From contig JAJXYT010000194.1 of NCBI GenBank assembly GCA_021780375.1, forward strand, positions 1 through 38,338: 38,338 nt of DNA, given 5' to 3'. This stretch comes from a bacterium (GTDB lineage: Bacteria; Verrucomicrobiota; Verrucomicrobiia; Limisphaerales; UBA11358). Below, in pieces: positions 29,292 to 37,613 of the stretch (positions are counted from its first letter, which is position 1; each line of letters opens with the position of its first letter). A model generated the notes under the pieces. It worked only from the letters and a program-made list of their open reading frames with translations, searched no databases and was not told the origin of the DNA. The translations under genes and the position numbers were made by a program.

Positions 29292-30686
29292 TCAGGATTT
29301 CGGATTCTGCGTTTGCACCATGTCCGCGCCAGTCGCGCGTTCGAGCCGGGCGCGGGCGGCGGCGTAGTCGTGCAACGCCTGAATTTGCGTCGTGCGCGCC
29401 TGCGTCAGCGAAGTCTGGGCGTCCAGCACGTCCAATTGCGTGCCGGTGCCGGCCGTGGCGCGCGCCTCGGCTTCGCGCAGCGCCTCCTCGGCCTCCGCCT
29501 GGACGGTCTTTTGCGAATCCAGCACCTCGCGGGCTTCAATGAACTGGGAATACGCCGTGCGCACCTCCAGCTCGATCTGGCGTCCCATGTCCTCAACGTC
29601 CGTCCTGGACCTCTCGTAAAGTGCCCGCGCCTGCACCACTTTCCCCCGCGTCAGCATTCCGTCAAAGATGTCCCAGCTCAATTGCGCCCCGGCATTCCAG
29701 CCGTGAATGTCGTGATCGAGGTCAGCGGGCTGCGTGAATTGCGCGTTATACCAACCATAGCCGGCAAAAACCTGGACCGTCGGTTTGTAACCCGATCTGG
29801 CGCTGGCCACGTTTTCGCGTTGCAACGCTTCCGCTTTGCGCAGGGCGGCGAGCTCGGTGCGGCTGGCCAACGCCTGCTCGATGGCCTGCGGCAAATCAAT
29901 CTGATAGGGCTTGGCTTCGAGCTGGTCGGAGAGATTCAGCGGAATGTCCTCCCAAATGTCGCGCGGCAGATTGTAGCCGAGCAGGTTGGCCAGATTGTTT
30001 TTGGCGATGCGGTAATTGTTCCGCGCCTGAATCAGGGCCGGCCGCTCGTTGGCCACGGCGACTTCGGCCCGCAGCACGTTGAAATGCGGCACCGTGCCGG
30101 CATGGTACCGGCTTTGCTGGTCCTCGAGCTCTTTTGAAAGCAACGCCACGGACGCCTCATGCACGACGATTTGTTGCGCCGCCAGCAATACATCGTAATA
30201 AGCCAGCCGCGTGTTCAGCAGCGTATCCTGCACCACGGTCTGATATTGCAATAAGGACTGTTCCTTCGTGAGCCGGGCGGCGCGAATGGCAGCAACCATT
30301 TTCCCGCCTTCATAAATGGACTGGACAATCTGAACGCCCGCATTCCAATTTTGATCGGGCAACTGGGGAATGGTCGAGACGGGAAAGCTCTCAATCGCGC
30401 TGCGTTCGGTCCTCTTGTATTGGCCGGAAGCGACCACGTGGGGCAGCGCCACGGCCCGGGTCTGGATCACGATGCCGTAGTTCGCCTGCAAATCGCTCTT
30501 GGCCTTGAGAATCGTGGCGTTCTGGCTCAGCGCCAGGTTCAGGCAATCCACGAGCGACAGCGGTCGAGTGACCCAGGCGGGCGCGTTGGTGTCGGCGGCC
30601 GTGCTTTGCGCCGGAGCATTCGAACCGGCGATGAATCCGGCAAGCAACAACAGGAAAATCAGTCTGGTCGTTTTCATATTTTTCAA
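29292..30686 (-). CDS. TolC-family outer-membrane efflux protein
   Basis: A trimeric channel-tunnel of the outer membrane that works with an inner-membrane pump and adaptor. The 464-residue product begins [27 protein letters not shown] (signal peptide; the second Met, three residues in, is an equal start candidate). Two OEP repeats are recognisable by [24 protein letters not shown] and [25 protein letters not shown], with long coiled-coil helices such as [29 protein letters not shown]. It lies 6 nt after the tetR stop, so they are one operon. No RND, MFS or ABC pump or HlyD adaptor follows, which is unusual. Confidence 0.93.
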
Positions 30687-30692
30687 ATTCTT

Positions 30693-31457
30693 TCAAGGCC
30701 GCCGGCGCTTGCCCCGTGGAGTAAGCTCCGCGGGTTTGCGGCGCATCCTGACCTCGGCTACTCCACGGGGCAGGGCCCGGCCCGGTTTGAACCCGGGTGT
30801 TTCAGGGTCGGACAAGTGCTTCATGGCGGCAAGCGAGAAGCGCGCAATATGCCCGGCCAGCGGCTCCACCGCCGAGGCGTCCAGTCGCTGCTCGGGAAAA
30901 AGCCGTGTAATCATGATCCGGCAATGATGAAAAAAAACACACTGGCTGACGATGCTGAAACAACACAGTCGAACTTCTTCGTCCTCGGGTGGACCGCCGA
31001 GAATTTCCGCCACCAGGCCGCGCAGCTGATCGGCCATCGGCCGGATCCGCCCTTCCAGCAACAGCTCCAGCGCCCCGGTCGGCTCCACCATTTCACGCGA
31101 CATGATCTTGCCAAACCGCGTGCTGGAGCCGCTGTCGAAGATGCGGAGCAGAAAAGACCGGATAAAGGCGCGCAGTTTTTCCTCCGGCGGCGCGTCAGCC
31201 GCCACGCCCAGCAAGGGGGGATATTTTTCAAAGGCCTTCTGCTGCGAATCCCGCAGAACCTCGGCGTAAAGCGATTCCTTGTCGCCGAAATGGTAGTTGA
31301 CGGCGGCGACGTTGGCGCCCGCCCGCCGGCAAATTTCGCGCACGGTGGCGTTGCGGAAGCCGGTCTGGGCAAACACCTCTCCCGCCGCCTCCAGGAGCTG
31401 ACGGCGCGTTTCATCATGCGCCGGGGGCCCGGGGCCGGACGACGATTTCAAATTCAT
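30693..31457 (-). CDS. TetR-family repressor (CecR/YbiH-like)
   Basis: A 254-residue regulator that probably represses itself and tolC. The N-terminal HTH domain is ETRRQLLEAAGEVFAQTGFRNATVREICRRAGANVAAVNYHFGDKE; the A..AVNYHFG.K.SLY pattern and the following ligand domain resemble CecR/YbiH proteins, which control efflux genes. The last ~25 residues (ALPRGVAEVRMRRKPAELTP...) are encoded by a palindromic repeat (30711-30771) and are unlikely to belong to the original protein. An inverted repeat overlaps its own promoter just upstream. Ligand unknown. Confidence 0.92.
   Translation of the reverse strand: MNLKSSSGPGPPAHDETRRQLLEAAGEVFAQTGFRNATVREICRRAGANVAAVNYHFGDKESLYAEVLRDSQQKAFEKYPPLLGVAADAPPEEKLRAFIRSFLLRIFDSGSSTRFGKIMSREMVEPTGALELLLEGRIRPMADQLRGLVAEILGGPPEDEEVRLCCFSIVSQCVFFHHCRIMITRLFPEQRLDASAVEPLAGHIARFSLAAMKHLSDPETPGFKPGRALPRGVAEVRMRRKPAELTPRGKRRRP
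30711..30771. repeat. 61-bp palindrome forming the 3' end of the tetR gene
   Basis: A perfect 13-bp outer arm GCCCCGTGGAGTA (30711-30723)/TACTCCACGGGGC (30759-30771), with partial pairing further in. It has no stop in the tetR frame, so the regulator reads through it and ends 18 nt beyond. Confidence 0.75.
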
Positions 31458-31852: not shown

Positions 31853-33424
31853 ATGTGGCGACGAAGTTGCCTGATTTTAACGGTGGTGATGGCCTTGACG
31901 GGACGAGTGGCGGCGAGTCTCGAATCCGGCGAGGTGAACCTGGATTATGTCGTCAAGCGCGCCGAGGAGCGGGCACGCCATCCGTTCCATTCGCCGCGCG
32001 CCGACCTGCCCAAGGTACTGCGGCAGGACAATCTTGATTACGACAAGTACCGGCAGATTCGTTTCCGCCGCAGCCAGGCTCTGTGGCGGGTGGAAAACCT
32101 GCCCTTCCGTATTGAATTTTTCCATCCGGGTTATCTCTACCAGGAGCCGGTGCATGTGTATGAATTCACGGCGACCCATTTGCAACCGATCCGGTTTGTG
32201 GAGGATTTTTTTGATTACGGCGGCCTGAACATCGAAAATGAAATTCCGGCCAACACCGGTTACGCCGGTTTTCGAGTCCTGTATCAACTGAACAAAACCA
32301 ATCAATGGGACGAACTCGGCGCGTTCCTCGGCGCGAGTTATTATCGGCTGCTGGGCAAGAATCAGCGCTACGGCCAGTCGGCGCGGGGTCTGGCGGTGGA
32401 TTGTGGAGAAATGGACCGCCCGGAGGAATTTCCCATCTTCACCGACTGGTGGCTTGGCAAACCACAACCCGGCGACAAGGAATTGACGCTGTTTGCCCTG
32501 CTGGACAGCGTCAGTTGCACCGGCGCGTATGAATTCATCATCCACCCCGGTGACACCACAACGGCGGATGTCGAGGCGGTGGTCTTCCTGCGCAAACCGA
32601 AACAAATCCTGGAGGCGAACCCGCAACGGAAACTGCCCATCAAAACCATCGGCATGGCGCCGCTGACCAGCATGTTCTGGTTCGGCAAAAATTCGGAACG
32701 CAAGTTTGACGACTATCGCCAGGAGGTGCATGACGCCGACGGCCTGCTGGTGCACATGGACAACGGCGAGGTGCTCTGGCGTCCGCTGGACAATCCGGCC
32801 ATCCTGCGGCACCAGGTTTTTTATGCGCCGCACATCCGCGGTTTCGGCCTGCTGCAGCGGGAACGTTCCTTTGCGGCGTATCAGGACATGTTCAACCTTT
32901 TTCAACGGGAACCCAGCGTGTGGGTCGAACCGCACAGCGATTGGGGCGAAGGCGATTTGCATCTGGTCGAATTGAGCGCCAACTACGAAGGCCTGGACAA
33001 TATCGTCGCGTTCTGGGACCCGAAAAACAAACCGGCGCCGATGCAACCTTTCCGTTTTGGTTACACCCTGTACTGGGAAAACGGTGAAGCGGACATAAAA
33101 CTTTCTGAAAACCGGGTCGTCAGCACGCGCATCGGTCTCGATGCGGGCCAGGCCAACACCCGCGTCATCATGATTGATTTTACCGGGCCAAAACTGGACG
33201 CCATTCCCCAAAACAATCCGCCGGAGGCCATCGCCAGTTGCAGCACCAACGCGGCGATTGTGTGGAACCAGGTTTTGCGCAATACTTTCCTCAAGACATG
33301 GCGTGTCGTCTTAAAAATGCAGCCGAATCCGGGTAATACCGATCCCGTGGATATCCGGTGCACGTTGCAACAGGGAACGAATATTCTGAGCGAAACATGG
33401 ACCTACCAATGGAGTCCGCCCTGA
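31853..33424 (+). CDS. opgG: Periplasmic glucan biosynthesis protein OpgG/OpgD
   Basis: Acts in the periplasm on the beta-1,2-glucan backbone of osmoregulated periplasmic glucans; relatives of this family have been described as beta-1,2-glucanases. The 523-residue product (E. coli OpgG about 511) has the signal peptide MWRRSCLILTVVMALTGRVAAS and characteristic segments: YDKYRQIRFRRSQALW, FHPGYLYQEPVHVYEF, GYAGFRVLYQLN, FLGASYYRLLGKNQRYGQSARGLA, LTSMFWFG and HDADGLLVHMDNGEVLWRPL. It is directly followed by an unknown gene (28-nt overlap) and opgH, so the three form an operon. Confidence 0.95.
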   Translation: MWRRSCLILTVVMALTGRVAASLESGEVNLDYVVKRAEERARHPFHSPRADLPKVLRQDNLDYDKYRQIRFRRSQALWRVENLPFRIEFFHPGYLYQEPVHVYEFTATHLQPIRFVEDFFDYGGLNIENEIPANTGYAGFRVLYQLNKTNQWDELGAFLGASYYRLLGKNQRYGQSARGLAVDCGEMDRPEEFPIFTDWWLGKPQPGDKELTLFALLDSVSCTGAYEFIIHPGDTTTADVEAVVFLRKPKQILEANPQRKLPIKTIGMAPLTSMFWFGKNSERKFDDYRQEVHDADGLLVHMDNGEVLWRPLDNPAILRHQVFYAPHIRGFGLLQRERSFAAYQDMFNLFQREPSVWVEPHSDWGEGDLHLVELSANYEGLDNIVAFWDPKNKPAPMQPFRFGYTLYWENGEADIKLSENRVVSTRIGLDAGQANTRVIMIDFTGPKLDAIPQNNPPEAIASCSTNAAIVWNQVLRNTFLKTWRVVLKMQPNPGNTDPVDIRCTLQQGTNILSETWTYQWSPP

Positions 33425-33999
33425 CCGGCCCGGGCGCGTTGACCGACGTTTCCGGCCGGCTGGCCGGCCGCCCGTTGGAAGAGTGGAACGCCGCCTACGC
33501 CAAGGTGGAAAACTATTTCCACGCCCTGCGGATTCGCAACAAGGCGTTATTGGGCCAGTTGGTGCTCCGCGTGCTCGAACGCGCCATGAAGCGCGCCCCG
33601 GTCGAACCGGGCCACTCCGCCACCCAGATTGCCGCCGAGGAAATGGACCGCATCGTGACCGAGTGGTTTGCCGCAGTGTTGCATGAACCGCCCACCAACG
33701 CCGACCAGATGCTCTCCACCCGCGGGCGGCTTGCCCTGCTCCTCGCGGACATGCCCGGCAAGTGGCAGGATCAATTCCTCCGCCCGCCACCCTGGCCGGA
33801 GGAATTCGTCCATTCCATGCGCGATGCCTACCTGCGCGCCGGACCGGGGTTTCAACTTTCCAAAATGACCCCGCGCCCGTTTGACCTGGGTCCCCTCACG
33901 ACCCTGACGAATCTGGGCCGGATTCCTTATTTGAAAATGGTGATGGCCTGGACCTTGTTCATCCTGTTGCTGTTCGCGATTTTTTATTTCACACACTGA
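33397..33999 (+). CDS. Tail-anchored protein of unknown function between opgG and opgH
   Basis: I do not recognise this 200-residue protein. It is mostly helical and rich in charged residues (NAAYAKVENYFHALRIRNKALLGQLVLRVLERAMKRAP). It has no signal peptide and ends in one transmembrane helix (MVMAWTLFILLLFAIFYFTH), so it should face the cytoplasm. ATG 33397 overlaps the opgG end by 28 nt, ATG 33409 is an alternative, and opgH starts 3 nt after its stop, so coupling is tight. E. coli OpgH carries a cytoplasmic N-terminal extension of roughly 140 residues that binds FtsZ, and the OpgH here lacks it. This gene could supply that part in trans, but I see no clear sequence match. Confidence 0.75.
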   Translation: MDLPMESALTGPGALTDVSGRLAGRPLEEWNAAYAKVENYFHALRIRNKALLGQLVLRVLERAMKRAPVEPGHSATQIAAEEMDRIVTEWFAAVLHEPPTNADQMLSTRGRLALLLADMPGKWQDQFLRPPPWPEEFVHSMRDAYLRAGPGFQLSKMTPRPFDLGPLTTLTNLGRIPYLKMVMAWTLFILLLFAIFYFTH

Positions 34000-34002
34000 A
34001 CC

Positions 34003-36168
34003 ATGCCCGGCGCCCCCCAGTCCGCTTCCGCCTCGGACCAGCCGCCGCCCCTGGGTGTGACTCCCCTGCCCCGGGTCCACCGCGGCTGGCGCGTGTTTGT
34101 TTTTTATTCCTGCGCCCTGTTGTTGACGGGATTGGTCTCCCTGCTCTTCGCCGATTTGCTCTGGCGCACCGGCTGGTCCGCCTCGAGCACCGTGTTGTTC
34201 GCCGTGTTCGTCATTCTGTTTTCGCTGATCGCGATCGGCTGTATGCATGGCGTGTTTGGTTTTGTCCTGCGCGCCGTCGGCGACCCCCGCCGCATCACGC
34301 AAACGGAGTACCGCACGCAAAGCATCGCCGGCGTCAGCACGGCCATCGTTTTTCCCATCTACAACGAAAACATCGTGCGCGTTTACGAAGGGCTGCGCGC
34401 CACCTACGAATCGCTCAAAAAAACCGGCCAGCTCGAACACTTCGACTTTTTCATTCTCAGCGATTCAACCGATCCGGACAAATGGGTGGAAGAAGAACGG
34501 TGCTGGTATGAATTGATCGGCGAACTGGACGCACTGGGACGGATTTATTACCGCCGCCGCACGGACAACGAAGGCCGTAAGAGCGGCAATGTGCGTGACT
34601 TTCTCAACGCCTGGGGCCGCCGTTACCGATATTTCCTGGTGTGCGATGCCGACAGCATTATGCGTGGCGAAACGCTGGTGGATCTGGTGAAGTTGATGGA
34701 ATTGCACCCGACCGTCGGACTGATTCAAACCGTTCCGGCGCTCGTGAACGCGGAATCACTCTTCGGCCGCATCCAGCAATTCTCCAACCGCCTTTACGCG
34801 CCGGTGTTCATCGCGGGGTTGAATTATTGGGCGCTGAATCTGGGCAATTATTGGGGACACAATGCCATCATTCGCACCGAACCGTTCATGCAGCATTGCG
34901 ATCTGCCGCAGTTGCCCGGACAGAAACCCTTTGGCGGCCAGATTCTCAGCCATGATTTCGTCGAGGCCGCGCTGTTGTCGCGGGCCAACTGGGAGGTGTG
35001 GCTCGCTTATGACCTGGAAGGCAGCTACGAGGAAGTCCCGCAGGGGATGATTGAAAATGCGCAGCGCGAACGCCGCTGGTGCCAGGGCAATCTGCAACAC
35101 GGCCTGGTCTTGTTCGTCAAAGGCCTGCGCGGGGTGAACCGGCTGCATCTGTTGCTGGGCATTTGCGGCTATCTCGCCGGGCCGCTGTGGCTGGTGTTTC
35201 TGCTCGTGTTCAACTGGATCCACTGGTATCAAAAATATACCGGGCTGTCGGAAATCACGGTCCATGGCTACCTGACCAACCTGAGCGGCACCGCCCATGC
35301 CTTTCTGGTCTTCAGCATCTGCATGGCGGTTCTGTTTTTACCGAAGGTGCTGGCGTTGATTGACCTGGCGTTTGATTGGGAACGCCGCCGGGCCTTCGGC
35401 GGCCTGGCCCGCACCACGGTGGGTGTCGTGGGCGAAACCATTTTTTCCACGCTGCATGCGCCGCTGCTCATGCTCTGGCACACGCGTTTTGTCGTCACCA
35501 ACCTGTTCGGGGCCAGCGTGGGCTGGGGCCAGCAAATGCGCGGCTCCGATGGCACAACGTGGTTGTCCGCCCTCCGGCGGCATTGGGGCCACACCCTCAT
35601 CGGCCTGGTTTGGGGCGTATTCATGTGGCGGTTGAATCAGTTCCTGTTCTGGTGGTTCACTCCGGTCTTCACCGGCATGGTGCTGTCCATCCCGCTCAGC
35701 GTGTGGACGAGCCAACGCAGCCTGGGCGCGCGCGCGCGAAAACTCGGGCTGTTTCTGACTCCGGAAGAAACCAACCCGCCGGTCGAACTCGTTTCGCTGC
35801 GCTCACAATTGCGAATCCACGAAATGACCGACGACACCACCCCGCGCCCTGCCTACGCCGGCCTGGCCGAAGCGGTGTTGGATCCTTACGTCAACGCGAT
35901 TCATGTTTCGCTGTTGCGGGAGAAGCAGCTGAATCCCGTTTATGCCGAGCAACTCGTCCGGCTCGGCGCCGGGCGTGAAGAAGTTCGGACCCTGGGCAGG
36001 AAATTGCTGGCCGAAGGCCCGGCCCAATTAACCGCCGCGGAACGACTCCTGGTCATGACCGACGCACACGCGATGGTCCGCCTGCATCAGCAAGCCTGGT
36101 TGCGCCCCGACGAGTCGCTGGCGCCGTGGTGGCGAGCGGCCATCCAGGAATATAGCCGTCGCGATTGA
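34003..36168 (+). CDS. opgH: Glucan glucosyltransferase OpgH
   Basis: An inner-membrane GT2 enzyme that makes the linear beta-1,2-glucan from UDP-glucose and passes it to the periplasm. Its 721 residues hold two N-terminal TM helices, then the cytoplasmic GT domain with VFPIYNENIVRVYEGLRATYESL, FILSDSTDPD, RRTDNEGRKSGN, the DxD motif VCDADSIM, YWGHNAIIRT, LSHDFVEAALLSRA and the Q/RxxRW motif RRWCQGNLQHGL, followed by several TM segments. The C-terminal VLDPYVNAIHVSLLR and RLLVMTDAHAMVRLHQQAW match the E. coli C-terminus. It is about 125 residues shorter than E. coli OpgH, all at the N-terminus before TM1. Confidence 0.96.
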   Translation: MPGAPQSASASDQPPPLGVTPLPRVHRGWRVFVFYSCALLLTGLVSLLFADLLWRTGWSASSTVLFAVFVILFSLIAIGCMHGVFGFVLRAVGDPRRITQTEYRTQSIAGVSTAIVFPIYNENIVRVYEGLRATYESLKKTGQLEHFDFFILSDSTDPDKWVEEERCWYELIGELDALGRIYYRRRTDNEGRKSGNVRDFLNAWGRRYRYFLVCDADSIMRGETLVDLVKLMELHPTVGLIQTVPALVNAESLFGRIQQFSNRLYAPVFIAGLNYWALNLGNYWGHNAIIRTEPFMQHCDLPQLPGQKPFGGQILSHDFVEAALLSRANWEVWLAYDLEGSYEEVPQGMIENAQRERRWCQGNLQHGLVLFVKGLRGVNRLHLLLGICGYLAGPLWLVFLLVFNWIHWYQKYTGLSEITVHGYLTNLSGTAHAFLVFSICMAVLFLPKVLALIDLAFDWERRRAFGGLARTTVGVVGETIFSTLHAPLLMLWHTRFVVTNLFGASVGWGQQMRGSDGTTWLSALRRHWGHTLIGLVWGVFMWRLNQFLFWWFTPVFTGMVLSIPLSVWTSQRSLGARARKLGLFLTPEETNPPVELVSLRSQLRIHEMTDDTTPRPAYAGLAEAVLDPYVNAIHVSLLREKQLNPVYAEQLVRLGAGREEVRTLGRKLLAEGPAQLTAAERLLVMTDAHAMVRLHQQAWLRPDESLAPWWRAAIQEYSRRD

Positions 36169-36305
36169 TTCAGCCCGCCTGCCGGAATTTCCTGAAACAG
36201 ATTCACGGGACGGGAGCTCGCCCTCTTCTCACTCTGTCTGCCATCAGCTTTGACGGGATATTTCGTTCTGGCGCGGCCCGGTTGGCGTTTTATACCGTTC
36301 ATCTT

Positions 36306-37613
36306 ATGCGATCCAAATGCTTCTCTCTCCCTGTCTTTACTTTTGTTGCGTTAATGGCCGCATGCCTCGGTCGCGCCCAAATGACGGTTGCGCCCGACAA
36401 GCCCGACGGCGTGTACCAGGTCGGAGACACCGTTCATTGGACAGTGGAATGGCAAGGCCAATCCAATGCGCCGGCCGCCCACTACACCCTTAAAAGCGGC
36501 GGCCTGACCGACGTGGGACAGGGCAACCTGAATTTCAGCAATGACGCCGCCGGGATCGAAACCCGGTTCGCGACGCCGGGCACCTTGTTGGTCGAGGTGC
36601 AATGGCAGCCGGAGAACGCCACTCATCGAGCCGTTGGCGGCGCCGTGGCCGCGCCGGACCGCATCACGCCGGCCGCGTCAATGCCGGCCGATTTCAACGC
36701 GTTCTGGAAGGCCAAAATCAAGGAACTGAAAAAAGTCCCGGCCAATCCCAAACTCGAAGCGGCGGCCAGCGGAAAACCGGGCGTGGCTTATTGGAAAATC
36801 ACCATGAACAACATCCGCGGAACCCATATCCAGGGCCAGATCGCCCGGCCCGCAACCGGCCAAAAGTTCCCCGCACTGCTCATTGTTCAATGGGCGGGTG
36901 TTTACGGATTGCAGAAAAGCTGGGTGACCGACCGGGCCGCGGAAGGCTGGCTGGCGCTGAACCTTGAACCCCACGATCTGCCGATTGATGAACCGGCGGA
37001 GTTTTACACGGAACAATCCGCCGGACCGCTCAAGAATTACTGGTCCATCGGCAACGACAATCGCGACACCAGCTATTTTTTGCGGATGTACCTGTCCTGC
37101 TACCGCGCCGTCGAATACCTGAAGACACGACCGGACTGGAACGGCCAGACGCTGGTGGTGATGGGCGACAGCCAGGGCGGACAACAAACCATCATGATTG
37201 CCGGGTTGCATCCCAAAGACATCACGGCGGCGCTGGCACTCGTGCCGGCGAACGGTGACACCCTGGCGCCTGATGTCGGCCGCGCGCCCGGCTGGCCGCA
37301 TTGGTATTTCAACACGGAAGGCAAAGACCCGGCGAAAGTGCGCGAAGCCAGCCGCTATTATGACATCGCCAACTTCGCGCGGCACATCAGATGTCCCGTG
37401 CTGGTCGGCTTGGGGCTGAGGGACGAAACCTGTCCGCCCTCCAGCGTATTGGCGGCAGTGAATGAAATGACTTCACCGAAGGAAGTGGTCATCCTGCCAA
37501 AGTCCGGCCATCAAGACGAACACGGAACGCAAAGTTTCTACAATCAACGCCGCTATGGCGGCTGGCTGCCCGCCCTGCGGCAAGGCAAGCCCGCGCCGAT
37601 TGAGCAACATTAA
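36306..37613 (+). CDS. Secreted acetyl esterase, CE7/acetylxylan esterase-like
   Basis: An exported alpha/beta-hydrolase that probably removes acetyl groups from xylo-oligosaccharides or related esters. It has 435 residues from ATG 36306, with signal peptide MRSKCFSLPVFTFVALMAACLGRAQ. An N-terminal beta-rich part (VAPDKPDGVYQVGDTVHWTVEW) precedes the hydrolase domain. The nucleophile elbow is GDSQGGQQ, the acid is probably the Asp of GLRDETCPPS and the base His is in SGHQDEHGTQ. The G-S-Q-G-G elbow fits the AXE1 family. It stands alone, 137 nt after opgH; with the GH39-like gene it suggests polysaccharide use. Confidence 0.85.
   Translation: MRSKCFSLPVFTFVALMAACLGRAQMTVAPDKPDGVYQVGDTVHWTVEWQGQSNAPAAHYTLKSGGLTDVGQGNLNFSNDAAGIETRFATPGTLLVEVQWQPENATHRAVGGAVAAPDRITPAASMPADFNAFWKAKIKELKKVPANPKLEAAASGKPGVAYWKITMNNIRGTHIQGQIARPATGQKFPALLIVQWAGVYGLQKSWVTDRAAEGWLALNLEPHDLPIDEPAEFYTEQSAGPLKNYWSIGNDNRDTSYFLRMYLSCYRAVEYLKTRPDWNGQTLVVMGDSQGGQQTIMIAGLHPKDITAALALVPANGDTLAPDVGRAPGWPHWYFNTEGKDPAKVREASRYYDIANFARHIRCPVLVGLGLRDETCPPSSVLAAVNEMTSPKEVVILPKSGHQDEHGTQSFYNQRRYGGWLPALRQGKPAPIEQH

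Follow-up and report, generated by a model that had tools for sequence, protein, structure and literature searches.

A small gene between opgG and opgH of a Verrucomicrobiota bacterium, here called X, probably encodes a separate, tail-anchored subunit of the glucan synthase that provides, in trans, the cytosolic N-terminal module of OpgH. This reading is drawn from (i) the gene order opgG-X-opgH, (ii) the single-copy occurrence of X and the purifying selection acting on it, (iii) its dependence on OpgH, and (iv) a motif that is found either in cis or in trans. A trans-acting N-terminal OpgH module with its own anchor is the most economical account of these data. The X family, unnamed so far, probably contributes a third component to periplasmic glucan synthesis throughout a phylum, the glucans concerned being the sugars that fill the space between the cell's membranes.

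A conserved gene between opgG and opgH

The window (the whole stretch of DNA analyzed, 38,338 nucleotides) contains the following features, in which X residues are numbered according to the 196-aa form.

31853-33424, plus strand: opgG, periplasmic glucan protein of the MdoG family (PF04349; Pfam E value, 1.2e-165)
33397-33999, plus strand: X, situated between opgG and opgH and encoding a tail-anchored protein of 200 aa (196 aa from the alternative ATG at 33409)
33475-33837, plus strand: helical bundle of X, predicted to be cytosolic; residues 23-143 (AlphaFold2 models of X by itself and of the fusion)
33838-33894, plus strand: conserved motif AGPGFQLSKMTPRPFDLGP of X; residues 144-162, consensus AGPDFQLSKMxPRPLDLGP, matching the region of E. 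coli OpgH 83-101
33937-33993, plus strand: C-terminal transmembrane (TM) helix of X; residues 177-195 (hydropathy; AlphaFold2 helix 171-195)
34003-36168, plus strand: opgH, short form, 721 aa, with TM1 at residues 31-49 and no cis motif (NF003958; E value, 3e-242)

The original prediction described X as an open reading frame that overlaps opgG and ends 3 nt before opgH, and the coordinates confirm it: the overlap with opgG amounts to 28 nt from the ATG at 33397 or 16 nt from the ATG at 33409, and the TGA of X is followed by "acc" and then by the opgH ATG at 34003. X is a genuine gene and not a chance ORF, because a search of 49 genomes of its genus (that of the window counted) found it as a single copy in 48, the relatives in this genus (67 to 90% identity) have zero internal stops, and its dN/dS against four relatives, taken outside the opgG overlap, is 0.12 to 0.15. 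The start lies at either 33397 or 33409, since conservation is split (relatives of the genus retain an ATG matching 33409 and often have L or V at the position of 33397; other families retain the ATG matching 33397) and both candidate ATGs coincide with TGG codons of opgG. X matched no Pfam or NCBIfam family even at E values up to 1, and sequence comparison with the PDB gave chance matches only.

The predicted tail anchor is borne out by a single hydrophobic segment at the C terminus (residues 177 to 195, with R/K on its N-terminal side and only TH after it), as well as by the AlphaFold2 helix covering it. Likewise, the claim that the adjoining OpgH lacks the N-terminal extension of the E. coli protein holds, with about 30 residues before TM1 in the window versus 138 in E. 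coli. Two further ideas were dropped: stop codon readthrough joining X to OpgH, as spacing and frame differ between relatives, and X as a missing TM1 of OpgH, as the OpgH of the window retains both TM1 and TM2.

Distribution of X with opgH and opgG

The same set of 388 Verrucomicrobiota genomes was searched with an X profile (alignment A2), OpgH, and MdoG, which were found in 70, 81, and 78 genomes, respectively. None of the 70 X genomes lacked OpgH (Fisher's test of X versus OpgH presence, P = 7e-66, uncorrected for the shared ancestry of the genomes); at the order level (245 genomes), 46 genomes had OpgH and 41 had X. When the coordinates of both profile searches were compared by hand, X was found to precede the OpgH match on its strand, ending no more than about 230 nt short of it, in 67 of the 70 genomes (the exceptions are G045, G288, and G394). 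The gene neighborhood survey proposed with the original prediction thus found X bordering a short OpgH in nearly all X genomes, rather than absent beside most short OpgHs of the Verrucomicrobiota. The association holds for genomes with OpgG and fails for short OpgHs in genomes without it: no X was found in the OpgH genomes lacking MdoG (G101, G106, G209, G214, G233, and G332). Phylum-wide co-occurrence and adjacency both support the proposal that X is a new partner of OpgH.

X was matched in 69 of the 78 MdoG genomes. In the nine remaining genomes with MdoG and OpgH (G315, G324, G318, G330, G348, G428, G440, G514, and G517), direct reading revealed a diverged small ORF in the opgG-opgH gap in every case; some of these ORFs (L207 to L209) have a TM helix and match X more weakly, while the others (L210, L211, L115, L118, L119, and L217) are short and lack one. 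Four of the latter (L115, L118, L119, and L217), from genomes of 2.2 to 2.5 Mb in family f65, belong to loci with two tandem MdoG genes, a soluble ORF of about 140 residues with KPLAVAMLPIKRKSM, and then opgH; the soluble ORF has diverged too far to be picked up by the X profile. A scan of genome contigs yielded 72 loci, nearly all of which are titled Verrucomicrobiota and a few just "bacterium," and they include an isolate, Chthoniobacter flavus Ellin428 (L189), in which the order opgG-X-opgH is present. X gave zero tblastn matches against plasmids, and a scan of viral contigs for further OpgH sequences gave no relatives.

Where the cluster is divided, X stays with one of its neighbors. In four genomes (G020, G045, G288, and G394), opgG and X are kept together with opgH elsewhere, and in four others (G464, G467, G476, and G511), X and opgH are kept together with the sole MdoG elsewhere; in two X' pairs (L080 and L081), X adjoins opgH and opgG is elsewhere. 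Moreover, where OpgH is present in a second copy (G097, G157, and G375), that copy has an X of its own. Since X travels with either opgG or opgH and is missing without MdoG, it behaves as a third component of the OpgG-OpgH system. Starts and stops that overlap or nearly touch, a feature of many operons, would also suit an ordinary neighbor that is retained by translational coupling and has no role in glucan synthesis, but this is very improbable for a gene that never occurs without OpgH, survives the loss of either neighbor from the cluster, and accompanies second OpgH copies.

A more distant OpgH subfamily (L080, L081, L079, and L031; G375:C1:1554447-1557064) has its own X paralogue with SSMVPRPLD; it is the second copy in some genomes, and a nearby opgG is sometimes missing. 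The sole clear exception found is L094 (G232), where opgG overlaps opgH directly, X is absent, and the sequence ahead of TM1 (GGASMGAG) does not contain a clear motif. In G336, a genome listed as complete, X lies at C16:67376-67864 with opgH and MdoG was not detected; MdoG does occur in two genomes from its genus. At L088 (G248) and G218:C35, opgG seems broken (pieces in two frames or an internal TGA), possibly as a pseudogene or through assembly error.

Genes flanking the trio show no conservation across loci. An AXE1-like esterase ORF lies directly 3' of opgH in the window (36165-37613; it probably starts at an ATG inside the ORF, with a signal peptide) and was dropped as a fourth operon member, as it was seen in 1 of the 72 related loci. 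A TolC-like outer membrane factor and a TetR-type regulator (29292-31457, minus strand), which are not generally conserved with the opg cluster, stand beside it in the window.

A motif shared with the fused OpgH N terminus

Among 25 diverse X members (two Leptospira ORFs among them), W86, P130, and M153 are invariant and P155 is nearly so; M153 and P155 sit in the consensus given above, immediately ahead of the TM helix. The motif, AGPDFQLSKMTPRPLDLGP in X, matches the N terminus of fused proteobacterial OpgHs, including E. coli 83-101 (SSMFPDPWRTNP). The fused motifs before TM1 read RSSMFPDPWRTNP in E. coli (residues 86-98), RASMVPRQWPP in Cupriavidus, and RGAMVPRPWGLRNP in Mitsuaria. In X as in the OpgH N-terminal module, SMxPxP is cytosolic and precedes a TM segment.

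Comparison by hhalign of the cytosolic parts of X and of the proteobacterial OpgH N terminus (OpgH-N; a small set of seven sequences, Neff of 2.2) gave a score of 30.1 (E value of 2.7e-4 for one comparison), versus 13.5 for a reversed control and 12.1 ± 2.7 (maximum, 23.4) for 150 column permutations, none of which reached 30.1. The local alignment is limited to 25 columns and becomes longer only when the TM part is included; the remainder of X outside the motif aligned to E. coli OpgH-N in no convincing way. When a matrix of the X motif was run over whole OpgH sequences, the best site was the N-terminal motif in all seven long-N OpgHs, with single-protein shuffle P values of 0.007 to 0.45. 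The evidence for homology between X and OpgH-N extends to about 25 residues and seven proteobacterial sequences, a point against the module reading.

The motif occurs once per system, either in cis or in trans. It was found in cis in none of the 88 X-linked OpgHs with a readable N terminus, and a motif scan of the OpgH of the window did not find it either. It ranges over the Verrucomicrobiota, probably Leptospira, and the beta- and gammaproteobacteria, and it is missing from the OpgH of genomes without OpgG. The motif common to fused OpgH-N and X, together with this exclusivity, lends support to the earlier suggestion that X is a split-off part of OpgH.

The shortness of the similarity and the failure of X to match Pfam, NCBIfam, or the PDB leave some room for a different origin, in which X would be an accessory subunit of the synthase (for assembly, as an export gate, for contact with acyl carrier protein, or for hand-over to OpgG) with no descent from OpgH-N and with a motif that is convergent or due to chance. 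X also stays by opgG in the four genomes with a relocated opgH, as such a subunit might. We nevertheless regard this as unlikely, given the permutation result, the same place relative to the membrane, the matrix result for the long-N OpgHs, and the fact that the cis and trans forms of the motif never occur together.

Predicted structure, candidate role, and known systems

AlphaFold2 folded X alone with a mean pLDDT of 70 into helices 23-39, 45-62, 71-91, 104-113, and 131-143 and the TM helix 171-195; the motif (residues 147-160) is predicted to be disordered, with pLDDT below 50. A Foldseek search with this model returned no solved structure with an E value below 1, Bcs subunits included. Because X and opgH share a frame in the window, reading through the TGA provided a natural fusion for folding with AlphaFold2 (44 alignment rows, 16 of them paired; mean pLDDT of 76, pTM of 0.67). 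Its OpgH core and X bundle were confident, X was not docked on OpgH, and pLDDT was 34 to 51 for the motif and 53 to 64 for the X TM helix. With the motif unplaced, the model speaks neither for nor against contact between the two proteins; such a fusion is also a poor proxy for contact, as the C terminus of X should be periplasmic and the N terminus of OpgH cytosolic.

For X as an N-terminal module acting in trans, the following mechanism may be envisaged. The TM helix would hold X beside OpgH, with the helical bundle in the cytosol, and X would place its SMxPRP motif against OpgH from the cytosolic side; there, the motif might complete or activate UDP-glucose-dependent polymerization and export of beta-glucan in OpgG-dependent systems. 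BcsA-type synthases work with separate membrane-anchored partners (BcsB, BcsG, and others). OpgH in the fusion model resembles these GT2 synthases (Foldseek E value, 2.6e-13), whereas X matches no Bcs subunit by sequence or fold.

E. coli OpgH-N (residues 1-138), which contains the division-blocking peptide 83-101, and X are alike in being cytosolic, in preceding the synthase TM1, and in their motifs (RSSMFPDPWRTNP and LSKMTPRPFDLGP, respectively). They differ in that OpgH-N is fused to OpgH, whereas X is a separate protein that brings a TM anchor and a helical bundle of its own. In E. coli, OpgH 83-101 is sufficient to block division and colocalizes with FtsZ, while its deletion or replacement by alanine within OpgH-N leaves division inhibition in place (PMC3723540). 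A role for X in division regulation is possible, with indirect support that extends no further than the shared peptide. That X is a detached regulator, whose motif would bind FtsZ and couple glucan synthesis or the UDP-glucose level to division, seems rather improbable to us: the motif coincides in position with E. coli OpgH 83-101, but inhibition did not end upon removal or replacement of that peptide, and the range of the motif and its absence from OpgHs without OpgG suit glucan synthesis better than division. Because the motif is conserved together with OpgG across phyla, we place glucan synthesis first; the primary role of the E. coli peptide likely lies in the synthase. It would be a long shot to suppose that X is a stand-alone carrier of the E. 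coli anti-FtsZ peptide that both activates the synthase and regulates division in Verrucomicrobiota, the E. coli moonlighting function having arisen from a universal synthase module. With X as the module in trans, the question of what the variable OpgH N terminus is for is reduced to one small gene.

The ORFs of Leptospira biflexa (129 aa) and of L. kobayashii plasmids resemble X in lying in the opgG-opgH gap and in having a C-terminal TM helix and a motif, (LT)SMVPRNLD or (FG)SMVPK. These ORFs are shorter than X, and the match to a Verrucomicrobiota-only profile is weak (11.6 bits; E value of 0.31 among 23176 ORFs). Caulobacter OpgH has no N-terminal extension and Caulobacter encodes no OpgG (PMC11389396), which agrees with an N-terminal module that accompanies OpgG.

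Among functional precedents, OpgI of Rhodobacter sphaeroides comes nearest and has a comparable arrangement. A passage in PMC10514313, citing Cogez et al. 2002, describes the opgGIH-opgC operon of Rhodobacter (Cereibacter) sphaeroides and relates that its opgI and opgH, expressed as a pair, complement delta-opgH E. coli. OpgI and X are both small proteins whose genes separate opgG from a short opgH. However, the OpgI-position ORFs of Rhodobacterales (L066 and L069) have 56 to 66 aa, no TM helix, and PLAMPxQxL instead of the SMxPRP of X, and the X motif matrix did not match them (the comparison covers these two Rhodobacterales loci). As the sequence match fails, we do not call X OpgI; R. sphaeroides OpgI may instead be recast as one case of a wider cis/trans arrangement.

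Alphaproteobacteria with opgG carry this other motif, PLxMPxQxL, at the N terminus of OpgH (Sphingomonas), at its C terminus (Azospirillum), or in a separate ORF of 56 to 66 residues in the opgI position (Sulfitobacter and Qingshengfaniella). By position alone, it may be the same module as the X motif. On an Azospirillum argentinense plasmid (L070), PLMMPVQNL lies near the OpgH C terminus, at residue 620, and in Sphingomonas (L205), PLVMPVQNL lies at the N terminus; the alphaproteobacterial motif looks like a movable docking peptide.
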